Source: a virus
IMG/VR virus record: IMGVR_UViG_3300029319_000114
Location: 18,982 to 43,508 of that record
DNA: 24,527 bases
Strand: one strand, 5' to 3'
In this document: in pieces, positions 503 through 21,136 of the stretch
How positions within the stretch are numbered: position 1 is the first letter of the stretch
Layout: every line of letters starts with the position of its first letter
Notes under the pieces: model-generated
Databases searched by the model: none
Told to the model about the DNA's origin: nothing
What the model saw: only the letters and a program-made list of their open reading frames with translations
Position numbers and translations under genes: made by a program

Positions 503-514
503 TTTTATCCCCTA

Positions 515-1192
515 TTATCTTTCAAAGTAATAATCTTCAACTAAATTTGTAGCTGTAGATTCTTTCTTAATTGTTACGTTAATTGTAACGTATCCACCAG
601 TTTCGTTTCCAATTATTGTAAGAGTTGTTGTTAAATCTGATACCGGCTGAGGTTTAGCAACAAGTTCAAATCTTGTTCCAACAGCTGTAACAGAATTACC
701 AGTATCTCCAATATAATCTGCAGTTGTTGGATTTGTTCTTGTTCTTATTCTACCACCTGGTGCAACATTAAGATATGCAGCATCAGAATTTGCAAGAATT
801 GCTGTATAGCCGTATGTTCTGTTACCATTTGCAAAGTTGGCAGTGTTTGGAGTAATTGGAGTTTTATCACCACCGTATGTCAATATGATATCAGTAACAC
901 CAACTGTAACTGTTGGCATTCTAGAAATATTTTTAGGAAGCGTTACTAGTTTGTGCTTCATAACATAATTTTCATTAGGTACAGCCTCAACAAGAGGTAA
1001 AGCCTCAATTGCCTGTCCATAATAATTTGTACCTAATTGGTGATTTACATCATATAAACCATAATCGATTTCGTCATCACCTAATGCAAATTGAGTAATG
1101 TTAAAAAATTCACTACCTTTTGCTAACAGTTCTCTACCTTTTTTTGTTAAGATAGCGTCAACTGTAATTGTTGTTTTATCTAAATATCCCAT
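515..1192 (-). CDS. Virion structural protein of T4-like marine phages, 225 aa
   Basis: The protein starts MGYLDKTTITVDAILTKKGR, an N-terminus I associate from memory with a conserved structural protein in the baseplate cluster of marine T4-like phages; no enzymatic motif is visible. The remainder is beta-rich with many Thr/Asn/Gly, typical of a virion protein. The start is supported by a GGAG site about 9 bases upstream, and a promoter-like motif (minus-strand TATATTTATA) lies 32 bases upstream. The gene therefore probably has its own late promoter in the 55-base gap after the 1431-residue gene. Assignment to the virion is from context; the exact place in the baseplate or tail is unknown. 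Confidence 0.7.
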   Translation of the reverse strand: MGYLDKTTITVDAILTKKGRELLAKGSEFFNITQFALGDDEIDYGLYDVNHQLGTNYYGQAIEALPLVEAVPNENYVMKHKLVTLPKNISRMPTVTVGVTDIILTYGGDKTPITPNTANFANGNRTYGYTAILANSDAAYLNVAPGGRIRTRTNPTTADYIGDTGNSVTAVGTRFELVAKPQPVSDLTTTLTIIGNETGGYVTINVTIKKESTATNLVEDYYFER

Positions 1193-4200: not shown

Positions 4201-5543
4201 TAATTATATACAGTGTCAAAATGATGTGCAACCATATTTACGAATAATAAATAATTTGCATTATCCTGGCCGTCACCTGCTTCTCTAATATGGAATGGAA
4301 TTACGTTTTCAAGATTGTGCTGGTTCATTACATCATAATCAAGTGCGACATTAGACTGAGATGCGAACCACGTTGTAGCCTCTGCTGAGTCAACAGCTGC
4401 TAATGTATAAGGTTCATCTGCATTTGTTTTTGGCCAAGTTCTTTGGTATCTTATTCCGTTACCTTTATTGTCAGGTTCGTATGAACCAGATTCAAAGTAA
4501 AGATATTTTTCATAACCATCAAAACCGTTTAATACCTCTTCTTTTTTTAGAATATAGCTATTTTTATTTTTAGTATTAAAATAACTTGACGATGCCATAG
4601 CATTTATTGTTGCAATTTGGTTATCGTAATATTCAATCAAACCTAACTTAAACTTAAAGTTTTCTAGCCTTTCTTTTGCAGAGCTAAAATGTACAAAATT
4701 ATAATAATAATGATAATCAATATTTAGATGTGTTGTATCATATCCCGAACCTGATATATATTTATTTAATATTTTCTGTCTAGATAGAGAGTTTGTACCT
4801 AAAAGAGAATTCCAAGTTTCAAACCCCGTTTCACCTCCAGCTCCTTTTGTAACATCAATTGTAAAATTAGGTCCTGCTATTTCTTCACCATCTTTTGGTT
4901 TTTCAGCAGGTATAAGTTTAATCATTTCTGTATGAGATGTGATTATTTCTTTTACAATCCAAAGCTGTTGCTTAACTAGTATATCTTTAGGTAAAGGTTT
5001 ATATAATTTAAGAAGTATTCCATCATCACCATCACCTTTCCAATTTGTTACAATGTGTACGTTATTGTCACCTAAATTTATTAAAAGGTCCTGCCATCCT
5101 TCGTCTACAAAATCATCAATATTTTTTTCTTGTAGCTCTTCAAACTCAGACAAAAACTCTTCATTTCTAGTAGTTGTTTTTATTCTTATTTCTGTACGTG
5201 AATCTGATATTTCGGATATGTGCAGTCCATTATTTTCATTGTATGAACCTAAAATATCTCTAAAAAAATTATAATGTACTTTATATAAACCTGATTTGAA
5301 TCCTAGGTCTCGTATATCATTGTGTATATCAAGTTCTATTCTAGGCTTCTTTCTTTTTCTACCTTTCTTTATATATTTATCAATCTTAAAAGTATCGACA
5401 TCATATTCACTAGCTAATAAAGTTTCACCTCCATATACGTGTAATTCAACTAAGTCAATTTCACCTTCACCAAAATTTGTAAAAATCTTTTTTGAAGGTA
5501 TATTCTTTAAGTCTTCTGGTTTATATCTTTCTATTCTATCCAT
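1248..5543 (-). CDS. Giant tail/baseplate structural protein, 1431 aa
   Basis: This is the largest gene in the window and the fifth-last of the baseplate operon. The N-terminal 150 residues are charged and include a Lys/Arg run (KKGRKRKKPR). Around residues 575-600 there is a motif GGERGIRALTTTYGLPPTLL followed by EYGG. Residues about 614-850 look like a beta-sandwich of the concanavalin/LamG type (FSFSLQF; FELRFNT; ALELRA; WWNVMVSKT; VRVTLGG; GSLQEYRTW). That fold reading is by eye. The C-terminal third is rich in Tyr, Asn, His and Gly (SRYYWDNMQW; HNYGHN-like stretches), as in receptor-contact or fibre-anchoring proteins. It overlaps the upstream 440-aa gene by 8 bases. The role is probably a peripheral baseplate or fibre-attachment protein; no T4 homologue is recognised. 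Confidence 0.75.
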   Translation of the reverse strand: MDRIERYKPEDLKNIPSKKIFTNFGEGEIDLVELHVYGGETLLASEYDVDTFKIDKYIKKGRKRKKPRIELDIHNDIRDLGFKSGLYKVHYNFFRDILGSYNENNGLHISEISDSRTEIRIKTTTRNEEFLSEFEELQEKNIDDFVDEGWQDLLINLGDNNVHIVTNWKGDGDDGILLKLYKPLPKDILVKQQLWIVKEIITSHTEMIKLIPAEKPKDGEEIAGPNFTIDVTKGAGGETGFETWNSLLGTNSLSRQKILNKYISGSGYDTTHLNIDYHYYYNFVHFSSAKERLENFKFKLGLIEYYDNQIATINAMASSSYFNTKNKNSYILKKEEVLNGFDGYEKYLYFESGSYEPDNKGNGIRYQRTWPKTNADEPYTLAAVDSAEATTWFASQSNVALDYDVMNQHNLENVIPFHIREAGDGQDNANYLLFVNMVAHHFDTVYNYLDYTMQIHKRNNPLYEGLSKDLVYNVLASFGWESYQGFHFTDLWEYALGVNEDNTYANSDTQFQITGYATQSYDAFGNVIQVDSGSIKYTLASNQQTGSLITREELSRETWKRMLNNLPYLMKTKGGERGIRALTTTYGLPPTLLRIFEYGGPQKEKTTDSHAIYDKFSFSLQFGEENPNPDPTLIQTPWAKINAAKWPKHVTTNRPVDAFELRFNTTASKNMTLLSRANQFALELRAHPSASNVTSGYYNFGQVFFHYRIGAAGADLFCSSSYMPIYDNDWWNVMVSKTTGSEFGTNNAIGFQLAVCKAADHSRGRITHTSSAFLNVSAQTDAQYSWNIQNVRVTLGGDDTSLASNPESYYTGSLQEYRTWILPEDDDVAFESWNSLKQFHNHARAPLSIEAYGATGSYFQLVQRYSLGADLNRFSSSWNSGNNFLSSSHPNHKLTDIWTTTGTNAFGSNLVATASGFRGNVNQDWITEEERHYTPMPDLVGTREISDKIRIESAELQGRLSDKRKVERSQFDKAPLDSNRLGVYFAPHFEIDLDIAHELGGARFDNYVGNPLDYRDNEYKRLRVLRNHYWKKHDNPYDFFEFLRILRYIDHTLFKQIEMLVPARANAQVGLLVKANLLERPKVENLQEYVEENHYSGSLDISRYRVTANTTTLGGPFHQWQNPKNGIWETGSDEAGTKAIQAHTGYQTLESGSSYGAVPTDQSTAEIEVFLDTRNRHGHKVDIQGSRYYWDNMQWYQSQSVAGANVGYFNNPTASVIQGGASYENAGDFLLNIEAIPAEGYFGIEKYVHSHTSESSFTQDNWKVSGSNFNHPNYGHNQRLERVPKFNDRGNIKYYHHQRHSRFKLTPKYHYFAPMNNMANSGSTGNHHSNVSMSGYPPATLRKGFFRSGLRPVSRSYERAEAQDYRTDAYNRLLFAGCKLVGSDFNMPVTTTVDGGPVVEITDTNPNSLVIGSPSAAQGDIEAVNFNDSIR

Positions 5544-16723: not shown

Positions 16724-17704
16724 TTATTTCTTACCTTTTACTTTGTCTCTTATATTATTAAGTATACCTGAAACAGAGTTTATTCTGTCCTCAAAGCCCT
16801 TAATGTTACGTAAACCGTTGGCAACCTCATTGTTAAGTGCCTCAACTTTTTCTAATCTTTTCATACCTGATAGGTTCAAACCTAATTCTTCCATCTCGTC
16901 TTTTGACTTCATTGTGTTAAATGCGAAGTTTGCAGTTACAACAAGAGCTATTGCCAATGGGTCAAATACAAACACTATTAAAAGCAAAAACCAATTTACA
17001 ACTTTATCCATAGGAGTATTTGTCATATCTGATAAATATTTTAGAGGCCCTAACTCTCTTTGCTCTTCATTGTCCATTTCTAAATTTAACAAGTCTGTAT
17101 CAAGTCTCATTATAGAGTCCTGTATAGCTTCTAACTTTAAGTTTATATCATTTCTATCAGTAATTGTTGATTCCAATTCTTTCTGCAATGCCCTTCTTGC
17201 TGACGAAGATGTAGTAGTTATTAACTGACCCGATTCTCTATCTACATATTGTACCTGTGTTGGATTTGATAACGATGTTCTCAATTCGCTTATTGTATTA
17301 TTTAGTTGAGACTTCTCTATCATTAAGTCATTTTTATTATCTTCAAATCTGTTCTGTTTAACCTGCAACACTACTAATGATTTATCTAGGAATTCAGATT
17401 TGGTTGCTGTCTCTTGATAAGCTCCAGATAAGAATCCATATATACCACCTGATGTAATTACCATAAGAATAAACACAGCAATTGAAAGATATATCTTAAG
17501 TGCCTTATTTATTTCATTCCAATATTGGTATAATAAAGAAGCAACTACAAGCTTTGCAAATTCTAAACTACCAGCCATTATTATTACCTGGGTACTTGCA
17601 CCTGCAAATAATTTACTTAAACCAAATACGGAATAAAAAGCAGCAGAAGCAGAAACTGACAATGCACTAAAGGCTATTAGAAAAGGAAGTAATTTTGTTT
17701 TCAT
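16724..17704 (-). CDS. Multi-pass membrane protein with periplasmic coiled coil, 326 aa
   Basis: Hydrophobic segments are at about 5-25, 38-60, 68-92 and 236-262. Between the third and fourth lies a stretch of some 130 residues with heptad-like coiled coil (QNRFEDNKNDLMIEKSQLNN; ALQKELESTITDRNDINLKL) interrupted by a Ser/Thr patch (TTTSSSARR). A second coiled coil forms the C-terminal tail (VEALNNEVANGLRNIKGFED). If the termini are cytoplasmic, the long coil would be periplasmic. No family is recognised with confidence. Coupled to the 287-aa gene by an ATGA overlap. An envelope role, for example lysis control or superinfection exclusion, would be speculation. Confidence 0.75.
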   Translation of the reverse strand: MKTKLLPFLIAFSALSVSASAAFYSVFGLSKLFAGASTQVIIMAGSLEFAKLVVASLLYQYWNEINKALKIYLSIAVFILMVITSGGIYGFLSGAYQETATKSEFLDKSLVVLQVKQNRFEDNKNDLMIEKSQLNNTISELRTSLSNPTQVQYVDRESGQLITTTSSSARRALQKELESTITDRNDINLKLEAIQDSIMRLDTDLLNLEMDNEEQRELGPLKYLSDMTNTPMDKVVNWFLLLIVFVFDPLAIALVVTANFAFNTMKSKDEMEELGLNLSGMKRLEKVEALNNEVANGLRNIKGFEDRINSVSGILNNIRDKVKGKK

Positions 17705-18564
17705 GATTTTGGTGGTTGGTTTGAACTATATACCAATGTGTATATTACCTTTCCTTCAATGTCCTCTTTTATTCTAATTTCTGAATCTACAATTCCTAAT
17801 TTTTCTATGTGTCTTTGTAGCTTTGAAATTTTATCAGAGTCATAATTACTTATACATACAAACTCTCCAATTATTGTAACTACCAGATTGTCGTAGTTAT
17901 ATTGCTTTTGAAACGAGTTATATTTTTCATCATCCAATGTAGGTATTAGTGACGATGAATGTACAAGTCTTTCTGAATAGTATTTTTTATTTGATATATC
18001 TAATTTTTCGTACCATTTTCTAAAGGATGCATAATCACCTTCAAATATATTTTTATCATTTTCGTCCATAAGAGACCACATCTCTACAGCTGATAGTGCT
18101 TCAGGAATATATTTCATATCTCCTGTTTTATATGTACTACTTGTGTTATTTTCGAAACTGTCTCTATATTGTTTAAACAAACCTATTAAATGGTCAATGG
18201 AATTTAATCCATGTCTTTTAGTACTTTCAGTTTTATTCATTACAAAACTAGTACGTTTAGAATCTATTGTTATATCTTTGATAAGCTGAGCCATACCTTT
18301 TTTACCAGAATCTAATATGTCTTTTAATTCCTGACATTTCTCATATTCTTCTGTTTCTATAAAATAGTCTATTATGTCATTTAACATATCTGTTAATTCA
18401 TTCATCTCTATTTTATATGGGTCATATAATATATAGCTTATCTCATTACCCTGGCTAGCCAAATTGTCTATATTGAATTTACCTGTAAGAATTTTATAGG
18501 TATTTTCGAATGCCAGGTCCAAACCTTCATTATCAAGCTTTTCATATGATTCGTATGATTCCAT
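17701..18564 (-). CDS. Hypothetical acidic protein, 287 aa
   Basis: Acidic and mostly helical (MESYESYEKLDNEGLDLAFE; EMNELTDMLNDIIDYFIETE), with a more beta-like C-terminal 90 residues (NYDNLVVTIIGEFVCISNY; GKVIYTLVYSSNQPP). No motif recognised. GGAAG lies 6 bases upstream of the ATG. It is the first protein gene after the tmRNA/tRNA locus and is probably co-transcribed with it, since only about 33 bases separate the end of the coding-RNA pseudoknot from the ATG. Coupled to the downstream membrane protein. Confidence 0.72.
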   Translation of the reverse strand: MESYESYEKLDNEGLDLAFENTYKILTGKFNIDNLASQGNEISYILYDPYKIEMNELTDMLNDIIDYFIETEEYEKCQELKDILDSGKKGMAQLIKDITIDSKRTSFVMNKTESTKRHGLNSIDHLIGLFKQYRDSFENNTSSTYKTGDMKYIPEALSAVEMWSLMDENDKNIFEGDYASFRKWYEKLDISNKKYYSERLVHSSSLIPTLDDEKYNSFQKQYNYDNLVVTIIGEFVCISNYDSDKISKLQRHIEKLGIVDSEIRIKEDIEGKVIYTLVYSSNQPPKS

Positions 18565-18597: not shown

Positions 18598-18745
18598 CCA
18601 ACCTCCGAAGCTTTGACGGCATGCTTCTTCTACCGTTGGGTCCGGGTGCCTATTTAGGCAGCCATTGCCATTTCAACTTGTTCGCCAGTTAATTGCGTTT
18701 GAACTTCCTTATATCCTTATCTTCTTGTCAAAACCAGTCATCCCC
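18598..18745 (-). ncRNA. ssrA: tmRNA, coding piece (5' half) of a permuted two-piece tmRNA
   Basis: Reading the minus strand from 18745, the RNA starts GGGGATG (acceptor 5' strand) and ACTGGTTTTGACA (the D-loop-like tmRNA start). It continues with the P2 5' strands AAGAAG (18726-18721) and ATATAAG (18714-18708), then the tag frame from 18686 to a TAA at 18654, a hairpin TGCCT/AGGCA around the stop, and a possible H-type pseudoknot. The pseudoknot pairs are ACGG/CCGT (18636-18633 with 18619-18616) and GAAGC/GCTTC (18627-18623 with 18611-18607). The acceptor and P2 strands pair exactly with the separate piece at 18836-18890. The 3' boundary near 18598 is estimated from the last possible helix (CCAAC/GTTGG, which would compete with part of the pseudoknot stem). 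Confidence 0.88.
18654..18686 (-). other. tmRNA tag-peptide reading frame
   Basis: GGC GAA CAA GTT GAA ATG GCA ATG GCT GCC TAA reads GEQVEMAMAA-stop. The C-terminal AMAA resembles the hydrophobic -AA degradation tail of known tags. The five bases before GGC are TAACT, with A at the -4 position as in the E. coli TAGTC that sets the resume codon. The start codon is inferred; the frame is open further upstream (…QTQLT), so a longer tag is possible, but the out-of-frame GCA at about 18694 is not the resume codon for this stop. Confidence 0.7.
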
Positions 18746-18757
18746 ATGTTTTAACCG

Positions 18758-18831
18758 TGGAGAATATCAGATTCGAACTGATGGCCTCTACAGTGCAAGT
18801 GTAGCGCTCTAGCCAACTGAGCTAATTCCCC
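18758..18831 (-). tRNA. tRNA-Ala (anticodon UGC)
   Basis: All four arms fold: acceptor GGGGAAT/ATTCTCC with the G3-U70 pair that marks tRNA-Ala; D-arm GCTC…GAGC; anticodon arm CTACA-CTTGCAC-TGTAG with anticodon TGC; a 5-base variable loop; and T-arm ATCAG-TTCGAAT-CTGAT. The discriminator is A; CCA is not encoded. It lies between the two tmRNA pieces, 4 bases after the acceptor piece and 12 bases before the coding piece. Confidence 0.96.
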
Positions 18832-18835
18832 TTTG

Positions 18836-18890
18836 TGGAGATGGTGGGAATCGAACCCACGTCCAAAGAAGTAGCTAATATAAGTACTAA
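18836..18890 (-). ncRNA. ssrA: tmRNA, acceptor piece (3' half) of a permuted two-piece tmRNA
   Basis: The minus strand ends GGAC, then T-arm GTGGG-TTCGATT-CCCAC (18860-18844), then CATCTCC (18843-18837) plus discriminator A, the typical 3' end of tmRNA. CATCTCC pairs with GGGGATG of the coding piece over 7 bp including G3-U70. Upstream, CTTCTT (18871-18866) and CTTATAT (18884-18878) pair with AAGAAG and ATATAAG of the coding piece, separated on both sides by 6 bases, giving helix P2. The 5' end near 18890 is inferred from the promoter motif just upstream. CCA is not encoded. No 5' half lies upstream of it, so this is not a conventional one-piece tmRNA. Confidence 0.87.
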
Positions 18891-18898
18891 CGTTCAAA

Positions 18899-18908
18899 TA
18901 TAAATATC
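18899..18908 (-). promoter_or_regulatory. Candidate promoter of the tmRNA/tRNA-Ala locus
   Basis: Minus-strand GATATTTATA, followed by TTTGAACG, immediately upstream of the acceptor piece and overlapping the stop codon of the 75-aa gene. It is identical to the element at 10899. A start 7-9 bases downstream would begin the RNA near 18890, just before the P2 strand. Confidence 0.45.
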
Positions 18909-19134
18909 ACTTTTCTACCTGTTTTTTAGGTTTTCGTCTATAAGTTCTGCGATTATTTTTTGGTGCAGATTTCCTAGAATTTTTACCAAGTGATTTGATT
19001 TCGTTTTTAAGTAACTCATTTACTAGAATTTTATCCTCTAATAATTCTTTTACCGTAACGAATTTTTTGTTTAGATATAGTACAGTTGCTACTACTCCTA
19101 AACCAAATGCTAGTATTACTGATAGTGTTATCAT
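18907..19134 (-). CDS. Small single-pass membrane protein with basic tail, 75 aa
   Basis: Residues 3-21 are hydrophobic (TLSVILAFGLGVVATVLYL), followed by a short helix (VKELLEDKILVNELLKNEIK) and a very basic tail (about 20 residues of Arg/Lys/Asn, including RRTYRRKPKK). The start overlaps the previous stop as ATGA. The tail suggests a cytoplasmic end near nucleic acid or membrane phosphates. Family not recognised. Its stop codon overlaps the candidate promoter of the tmRNA locus. Confidence 0.68.
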   Translation of the reverse strand: MITLSVILAFGLGVVATVLYLNKKFVTVKELLEDKILVNELLKNEIKSLGKNSRKSAPKNNRRTYRRKPKKQVEK

Positions 19135-19406: not shown

Positions 19407-19617
19407 GTCTTATTTTTTTTAGCAAATTATGTCTACTCTTTTACATTTAGGATTTTCGACTTTCTCCTTTAGAATTATCTAATATATTATTTAATTTATT
19501 AGTTAATTATTATATTAGTATACTAATTATTAGTATTATTAGTAATTACTATTATTAGTTTTTTACTACTAATATATTAAAAATTTCCGACAAATAAAAA
19601 TATTTTCAGAACTTTTT
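19407..19617 (-). promoter_or_regulatory. Very AT-rich palindromic intergenic region (promoter cluster or origin-like)
   Basis: The largest protein-free gap apart from the RNA locus. It contains dense TTAGTA/TACTAA repeats and perfect palindromes: 14 bp ATTAGTATACTAAT (19514-19527) and 12 bp TAGTAATTACTA (19540-19551). A TATATTAGTA promoter-like element lies at 19567-19576 on the minus strand, and an AAGGAG-like site further downstream. The right end is a diverged copy of the intergenic repeat at 21856 and 23246. No ORF is supported. It could be a regulator-binding region, a promoter cluster or a replication start. Confidence 0.4.
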
Positions 19618-21062: not shown

Positions 21063-21136
21063 TGAACCAGGAAGGATTCGAACCTTCGACCTACAGCTTA
21101 GAAGGCTGTTGCTCTATCCAGCTGAGCTACTGGTCC
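21063..21136 (-). tRNA. tRNA-Arg (anticodon UCU)
   Basis: Cloverleaf: acceptor GGACCAG/CTGGTTC (one G-U), D-arm GCTC…GAGC, anticodon arm ACAGC-CTTCTAA-GCTGT with anticodon TCT, T-arm GAAGG-TTCGAAT-CCTTC, discriminator A; CCA not encoded. It reads AGA (and AGG), codons frequent in this AT-rich phage. The first 10 bases overlap the 3' end of the nucleotidase gene, whose TAG stop lies within the tRNA. Confidence 0.96.

Follow-up and report, generated by a model that had tools for sequence, protein, structure and literature searches.

The window analysed here, a 24,527-nucleotide part of a 43,508-base IMG/VR virus record (IMGVR_UViG_3300029319_000114), carries on its minus strand a tmRNA gene in two permuted halves, with a tRNA-Ala gene in the intervening segment (IVS) between them. 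Acceptor half, tRNA-Ala and coding half follow one another at the coordinates that the original prediction had given, and the 4-nt and 12-nt spacers on either side of the tRNA are likewise there. The acceptor half was also placed correctly, except that its start lies a few bases before the proposed 18890, because the prediction had overlooked the 5′ strand of a third helix between the halves, P2c (TTGAAC 18897–18892 with GTTCAA 18704–18699). From upstream to downstream, the features are:

18907–19134, minus strand: 75-aa protein, directly upstream; syntenic marker
18899–18908, minus strand: promoter-like motif GATATTTATA, found at a constant offset 5′ of the acceptor half in 30 of 50 family loci
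18836–18897, minus strand: tmRNA acceptor half (RF04321 match; covaries with the coding half across 38 relatives), comprising the P2c 5′ strand (18897–18892), P2b 5′ strand (18884–18878), P2a 5′ strand (18871–18866), T arm (18860–18844), acceptor 3′ strand CATCTCC (18843–18837) and discriminator A (18836)
18832–18835, minus strand: 4-nt spacer CAAA, separating the acceptor half from the tRNA; CAAA also opens the 20-nt IVS of the related loci L249 and L250
18758–18831, minus strand: tRNA-Ala(UGC), complete cloverleaf with G3-U70 (RF00005, 70.3 bits; ARAGORN)
18746–18757, minus strand: 12-nt spacer CGGTTAAAACAT between tRNA and coding half
18745 to about 18607, minus strand: tmRNA coding half (RF04321, covariation; 3′ end approximate), comprising the acceptor 5′ strand GGGGATG (18745–18739), P2a 3′ strand (18726–18721), P2b 3′ strand (18714–18708), P2c 3′ strand (18704–18699), tag (18686–18657) and pseudoknot (18636–18607)
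18654–18686, minus strand: tag frame GEQVEMAMAA with stop TAA (ARAGORN)
18607–18636, minus strand: 3′ pseudoknot, ACGG 18636–18633 with CCGT 18619–18616 and GAAGC 18627–18623 with GCTTC 18611–18607
17701–18564, minus strand: 287-aa protein of unknown function, directly downstream; syntenic marker for finding relatives

The promoter predicted upstream of the acceptor half is weakly suggested by the fixed placement of GATATTTATA, of which the window holds two copies against 0.27 expected. The 287-aa downstream protein has no PHROG or Pfam match. Elsewhere in the window, a DUF805b RNA motif (Rfam) lies upstream of the tmRNA locus (19430–19469, minus strand; 37.8 bits against a cut-off of 35.6), and a second tRNA, Arg(UCU), is encoded on the same strand as the locus (21063–21136, minus strand; 73.2 bits). 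In agreement with the proposed T4-like assignment, the contig encodes T4-type baseplate wedge homologues of the gp6/gp25 type (phrog_219, phrog_6, phrog_261 and phrog_43), with wedge protein identities of 47% to Microcystis phage Mel-JY01 and 42% to Flavobacterium phage immuto. The acceptor-half T arm of L125, a relative of the window, finds its best match in tmRNAs of Bacteroidota phages, and our guess is a Bacteroidota host. The parts of the genome that were read showed no phage SmpB.

The two halves pair as predicted over the 7 bp of P1, including G3-U70, and through P2a (CTTCTT/AAGAAG) and P2b (CTTATAT/ATATAAG). The permuted-tmRNA covariance search proposed with the prediction returned a match well above the cut-off (RF04321 tmRNA_permuted, 18894–18654, minus strand; 67.4 bits, E = 3e-11, gathering score 47; cmscan, Rfam 15), this merged model being the only permuted-tmRNA model to match the window. 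ARAGORN likewise called a permuted tmRNA with the tag GEQVEMAMAA* and, inside it, a tRNA-Ala(tgc). The tag frame closes at a stop and encodes a hydrophobic C terminus, which is a criterion for permuted tmRNAs.

The original prediction named halves that vary without compensation as evidence that would count against it; in related phages, changes in both P1 and P2 are compensated. Across 38 distinct mature sequences, aligned with the IVS removed, paired cells made up 266/266 in P1 (100%), 190/190 in the T stem, 214/228 in P2a (93.9%), 251/266 in P2b (94.4%) and 206/218 in P2c (94.5%). For each helix, 0/500 partner shuffles equalled the observed pairing, a figure that ignores relatedness and is not a probability. 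Double changes were found in 16 of 31 pairs: one P2a pair occurs as CG, AT, TG, TA and GC across relatives, and P2c is also found as TGACC/GGTCA and GAATC/GATTC. The alanine identity pair G3-U70 of the tmRNA acceptor stem is an invariant T-G column (38/38). The tag is 10 aa long in all 50 family loci and, across its 10 variants, always ends in AMAA. The second pseudoknot stem stays complementary with varying words (GAAGC/GCTTC, GGGC/GCCC, GGGAT/ATCCC, GAGGT/ACCTC, AGAGC/GCTCT and others), found by a per-sequence search with some freedom in the choice of words. Judged by these comparisons, the split tmRNA of the window is genuine and conserved among relatives, and the earlier interpretation of the locus is supported.

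Relatives were traced in viral contigs through the 287-aa downstream protein; RF04321 scored above its cut-off in 15 of the 16 relative records tested, with synteny kept. A coding-half pattern then gave 49 IMG/VR contigs, which together with the window make 50 complete loci, 41 of them distinct. The IVS is short (18–22 nt) in 39 loci, a two-hairpin cassette (68–70 nt) in 10 and a tRNA in one, the window (90 nt); none of the other 49 IMG/VR loci of this tmRNA family has a tRNA in its IVS. The tmRNA bodies nearest to that of the window are those of L249 (92.8%), L250 (91.2%) and L125 (88.1%), all with spacers of 20–22 nt, and L125 is syntenic with the window, its neighbouring proteins being mostly 87–96% identical. 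Because these nearest relatives have short spacers, the tRNA is a recent gain in the window's lineage. The window's spacers resemble the ends of the L249 and L250 IVSs, with CAAA on the left and ...AAACAT or ...AACGACAT on the right. On this comparative evidence, the tRNA-Ala was added later to an existing IVS. Two other family loci, L229 and L256, share a 68-nt two-hairpin IVS that is identical except for its last base, and their tmRNA bodies differ, which suggests that the IVS alone has been exchanged between phages. In L132, the corresponding locus holds a short non-tmRNA remnant with no RF04321 match, suggesting loss of the tmRNA.

The half/tRNA/half order, which the original prediction proposed to seek in related phage contigs, was found in phages of other lineages (L315 and L321, nine cyanophage-type contigs and crAssphage cr114_1). 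A broader scan, for tmRNA T arms with an AGCTCA D arm no more than 33 nt further on, brought up such cases. L315 and L321 enclose a tRNA-Ala and share the P2 motifs of the window's tmRNA, with a different gene neighbourhood and a 37-aa tag. These long tags, GTQIKPVKAGIFATLAAIRLLGTKEIATKEPVLAMAA in L315 (about 4600–4700, minus strand) and GKQVETVKAGIFASLAAIRFLATETVATEESVFAMAV in L321 (about 4600–4720, plus strand), are conserved across both phages and followed by a strong terminator. The tRNA-Ala genes of the window, L315 and L321 differ from one another at 10–12 of 74 bases and form full cloverleaves in all three. A tRNA-Asn lies in the IVS of cyano_tmRNA-type genes in L277, L293, L295, L297, L299, L323, L325, L326 and L335, with ANNIV-type tags (that of L277 is lost at the contig end); in L295 the array runs Thr, acceptor half, Asn, coding half, Arg. 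A tRNA-His, itself unannotated, occupies the IVS of the annotated tmRNA of crAssphage cr114_1 (L348, NC_055897; 647–718; 63.1 bits). The IVS of cr125_1, a close relative of cr114_1, is of similar length and holds no recognisable tRNA.

Isolate cyanophages carry related tmRNAs that enclose no tRNA. That of S-SSM7, which is akin to the tRNA-Asn-enclosing cyanophage tmRNAs (83% DNA identity to L323), has an empty 5-nt IVS, and those of Sf-FS3 and S-CAM1 likewise lack an enclosed tRNA. In the records of all three (L342, L343 and L344, respectively) the permuted tmRNA is unannotated, and the S-SSM7 record has a hypothetical protein over it. ARAGORN found 180 distinct permuted tmRNAs across all loci and called 13 of them tRNA-enclosing, of which 12 are credible, with L277 added by sequence; enclosed tRNAs were among the features searched for in building this set, so the counts do not give a frequency. 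Candidates set aside were L338, where a false permuted call overlies a one-piece tmRNA; L002–L004, which comprise a one-piece tmRNA followed by a tRNA, and tRNA arrays, and are no relatives of the window locus; and L272, L308 and L322, whose 100-nt IVSs are chance matches. A pattern with an IVS of 70–100 nt gave at least 114 permuted calls, with no IVS tRNA among those listed; it demands a 4-nt spacing that is absent in the window. Exact patterns of the window and cyanophage types, which cover close versions only, had no match in the genomes of 84,980 bacterial and archaeal species. From the contigs compared, tRNA enclosure is recurrent among phages of unrelated lineages and involves different tRNAs, of at least three isotypes.

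Other cargo is found at the same position. In the crAssphages cr56_1 and cr113_1, an antisense gene annotated as an endonuclease lies between the tmRNA halves, a layout shared by the unannotated faecal phage scaffold MT835588. The antisense gene in L358, L359 and L360 (about 509–1090, minus strand) looks HNH-like by eye and has no Pfam match; cr6_1 and cr4_1 possibly have a related layout. In L224 (10733–10873), a beta_tmRNA-like permuted tmRNA with the tag ANDNVFALAA has an IVS with a tRNA-like fold in which the loop of the anticodon region is enlarged; this may be a tRNA in decay. Some crAssphage coding halves run directly into a tRNA (L349, L351 and L352) or into a mini-tRNA-like element made of a T arm and acceptor (L348, L350 and L356), which is possibly a 3′-end processing signal. 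Across the loci collected, the IVS appears as an exchange slot that holds short spacers, hairpin cassettes, tRNAs (Ala, Asn or His) or endonuclease genes.

Taking these observations together, we favour, with a probability of about 0.88, the reading that the window encodes a two-piece tmRNA gene with a functional tRNA-Ala inserted into its IVS, the RNAs being co-transcribed, processed, charged with alanine and used in tagging. The architecture, its conservation and covariation, the gain of the tRNA and its recurrence can be read directly from the sequences. A single transcript would contain the acceptor half, the tRNA-Ala and the coding half, with the halves joined through P1 and the three P2 helices. 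By analogy with known two-piece tmRNAs and tRNA processing, RNase P would cut at the 5′ ends of the tRNA-Ala and the coding half, and the tRNA 3′-end machinery would trim both the tRNA and the acceptor half, neither of which encodes a full CCA. Each transcript would thus yield one tRNA-Ala and one two-piece tmRNA, and the latter, once charged with alanine, would tag stalled proteins with GEQVEMAMAA in infected cells.

Folding of the 303-nt precursor (ViennaRNA) strongly supported P2a–c and both T arms, and gave probabilities of 0.04 for P1 and 0.08 for the tRNA acceptor stem. Both values are low since the model instead pairs the acceptor-half CUCC with GGGG in the adjoining tRNA (0.8). The sequence itself creates this competition, as the tmRNA and the tRNA, whose four stems can all pair fully, share the alanine acceptor signature (GGGG...CUCC), and the precursor would have to escape such mispairing; nearest-neighbour folding, which ignores tertiary contacts and pseudoknots, does not decide the question.

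Whether the enclosed tRNA contributes to maturation of the tmRNA is the point on which the explanations differ. It might fold first, bring RNase P and 3′ nucleases to the region that separates the halves, and set a 1:1 ratio of tRNA to tmRNA. The gap between acceptor half and tRNA is just 4–5 nt in the window, L315 and most of the cyanophage cases, so an acceptor half freed by RNase P cleavage at the tRNA would keep a trailer of very few bases. The tRNA is nevertheless not needed to make the tmRNA ends, because spacers of 5–22 nt suffice in relatives and in S-SSM7, and the thermodynamic model predicts mispairing between tRNA and acceptor half in the window. We consider such coupled maturation doubtful, and any processing advantage of enclosure would be conjectural. 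The main rival to it, and one that we think has somewhat better than even odds, is that any insert is tolerated in the IVS as long as the acceptor stem can still pair, with tRNAs arriving by phage tRNA-gene recombination and their enclosure serving nothing more than the normal expression of both RNAs. The free variation in IVS content (short spacer, two-hairpin cassette, tRNA or endonuclease), the near-identical L229 and L256 segments in different tmRNA bodies, the cyanophage halves situated within tRNA arrays (L295) and the 5-nt IVS with which S-SSM7 manages all argue for such neutral insertion. Against it, the enclosed tRNAs have diverged between phages yet keep intact cloverleaves, three isotypes in unrelated phages are more than a single accident would give, and a degenerate tRNA-like relic was seen in L224 only. 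A broader proposal, in which the phage permuted-tmRNA IVS is a general cargo slot for tRNAs (Ala, Asn and His) that mature jointly with the tmRNA through shared enzymes, the tRNA being the signal at which processing parts the halves, is tentative.

Two further explanations would deny the arrangement itself, and we regard both as very improbable. If the halves were remnants that no longer form a tmRNA, five covarying helices, a conserved tag frame and a conserved pseudoknot would be hard to explain. The tRNA is confined to a single contig among the 50 family members, which might point to a misassembly that placed it between the halves; however, the window's spacers match the IVS ends of L249 and L250, and the same order with a homologous tRNA-Ala recurs in the independent contigs L315 and L321. 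The reading of a functional two-piece tmRNA that has acquired a tRNA-Ala is therefore retained.

The original prediction regarded a tRNA filling the IVS as undescribed, and one earlier mention corrects this. The nominally archaeal metagenome-assembled genome GCA-2688965__sp002688965.2 was reported to have a permuted tmRNA with an intact, high-scoring tRNA-Ala gene in its IVS, called a unique feature, in one sentence of a study whose authors doubt the archaeal binning (PMC11915505, 2025). That case and the window share a tRNA-Ala in the IVS; the published account does not go into sequence, mechanism or relatives, and the case may be a misbinned phage contig like the window's. No further report of a tRNA inside a permuted-tmRNA IVS was found in the open-access literature, to which the search was confined, subscription papers being outside its scope. 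Permuted tmRNAs have been published in marine phages, Melnitz and Mosig among them (PMC9004378). Those are, like that of the window, phage-encoded and two-piece, and mainly marine; no IVS tRNA is reported for them, some have a glutamine riboswitch, and their tag and lineage are unlike those of the window (PMC9004378). The permuted tmRNAs of Alphaproteobacteria, Cyanobacteria and Betaproteobacteria (RF01849, RF01851 and RF01850, merged into RF04321) share with the window the gene order, IVS removal, P1 and P2, T arm, tag and pseudoknot, but the IVS in these is described as nothing more than a spacer. The tag GEQVEMAMAA also resembles neither the AND-type nor the ANNIV-type tags seen in the other permuted tmRNAs examined.

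Permuted phage tmRNAs were thus already known; what is new is the recurrence of enclosed tRNAs in phages, their derivation by gain into an existing IVS and the use of the IVS as an exchange slot. The findings suggest that nominally archaeal permuted tmRNAs are worth checking for phage origin. What had been a one-line curiosity becomes an architecture that recurs in phages, takes up tRNAs of three or more isotypes as well as other cargo, and has relatives in which the site is cleanly empty. Two-piece tmRNA processing also becomes directly testable, because a natural tRNA marks the exact site for RNase P and the 3′ nucleases.
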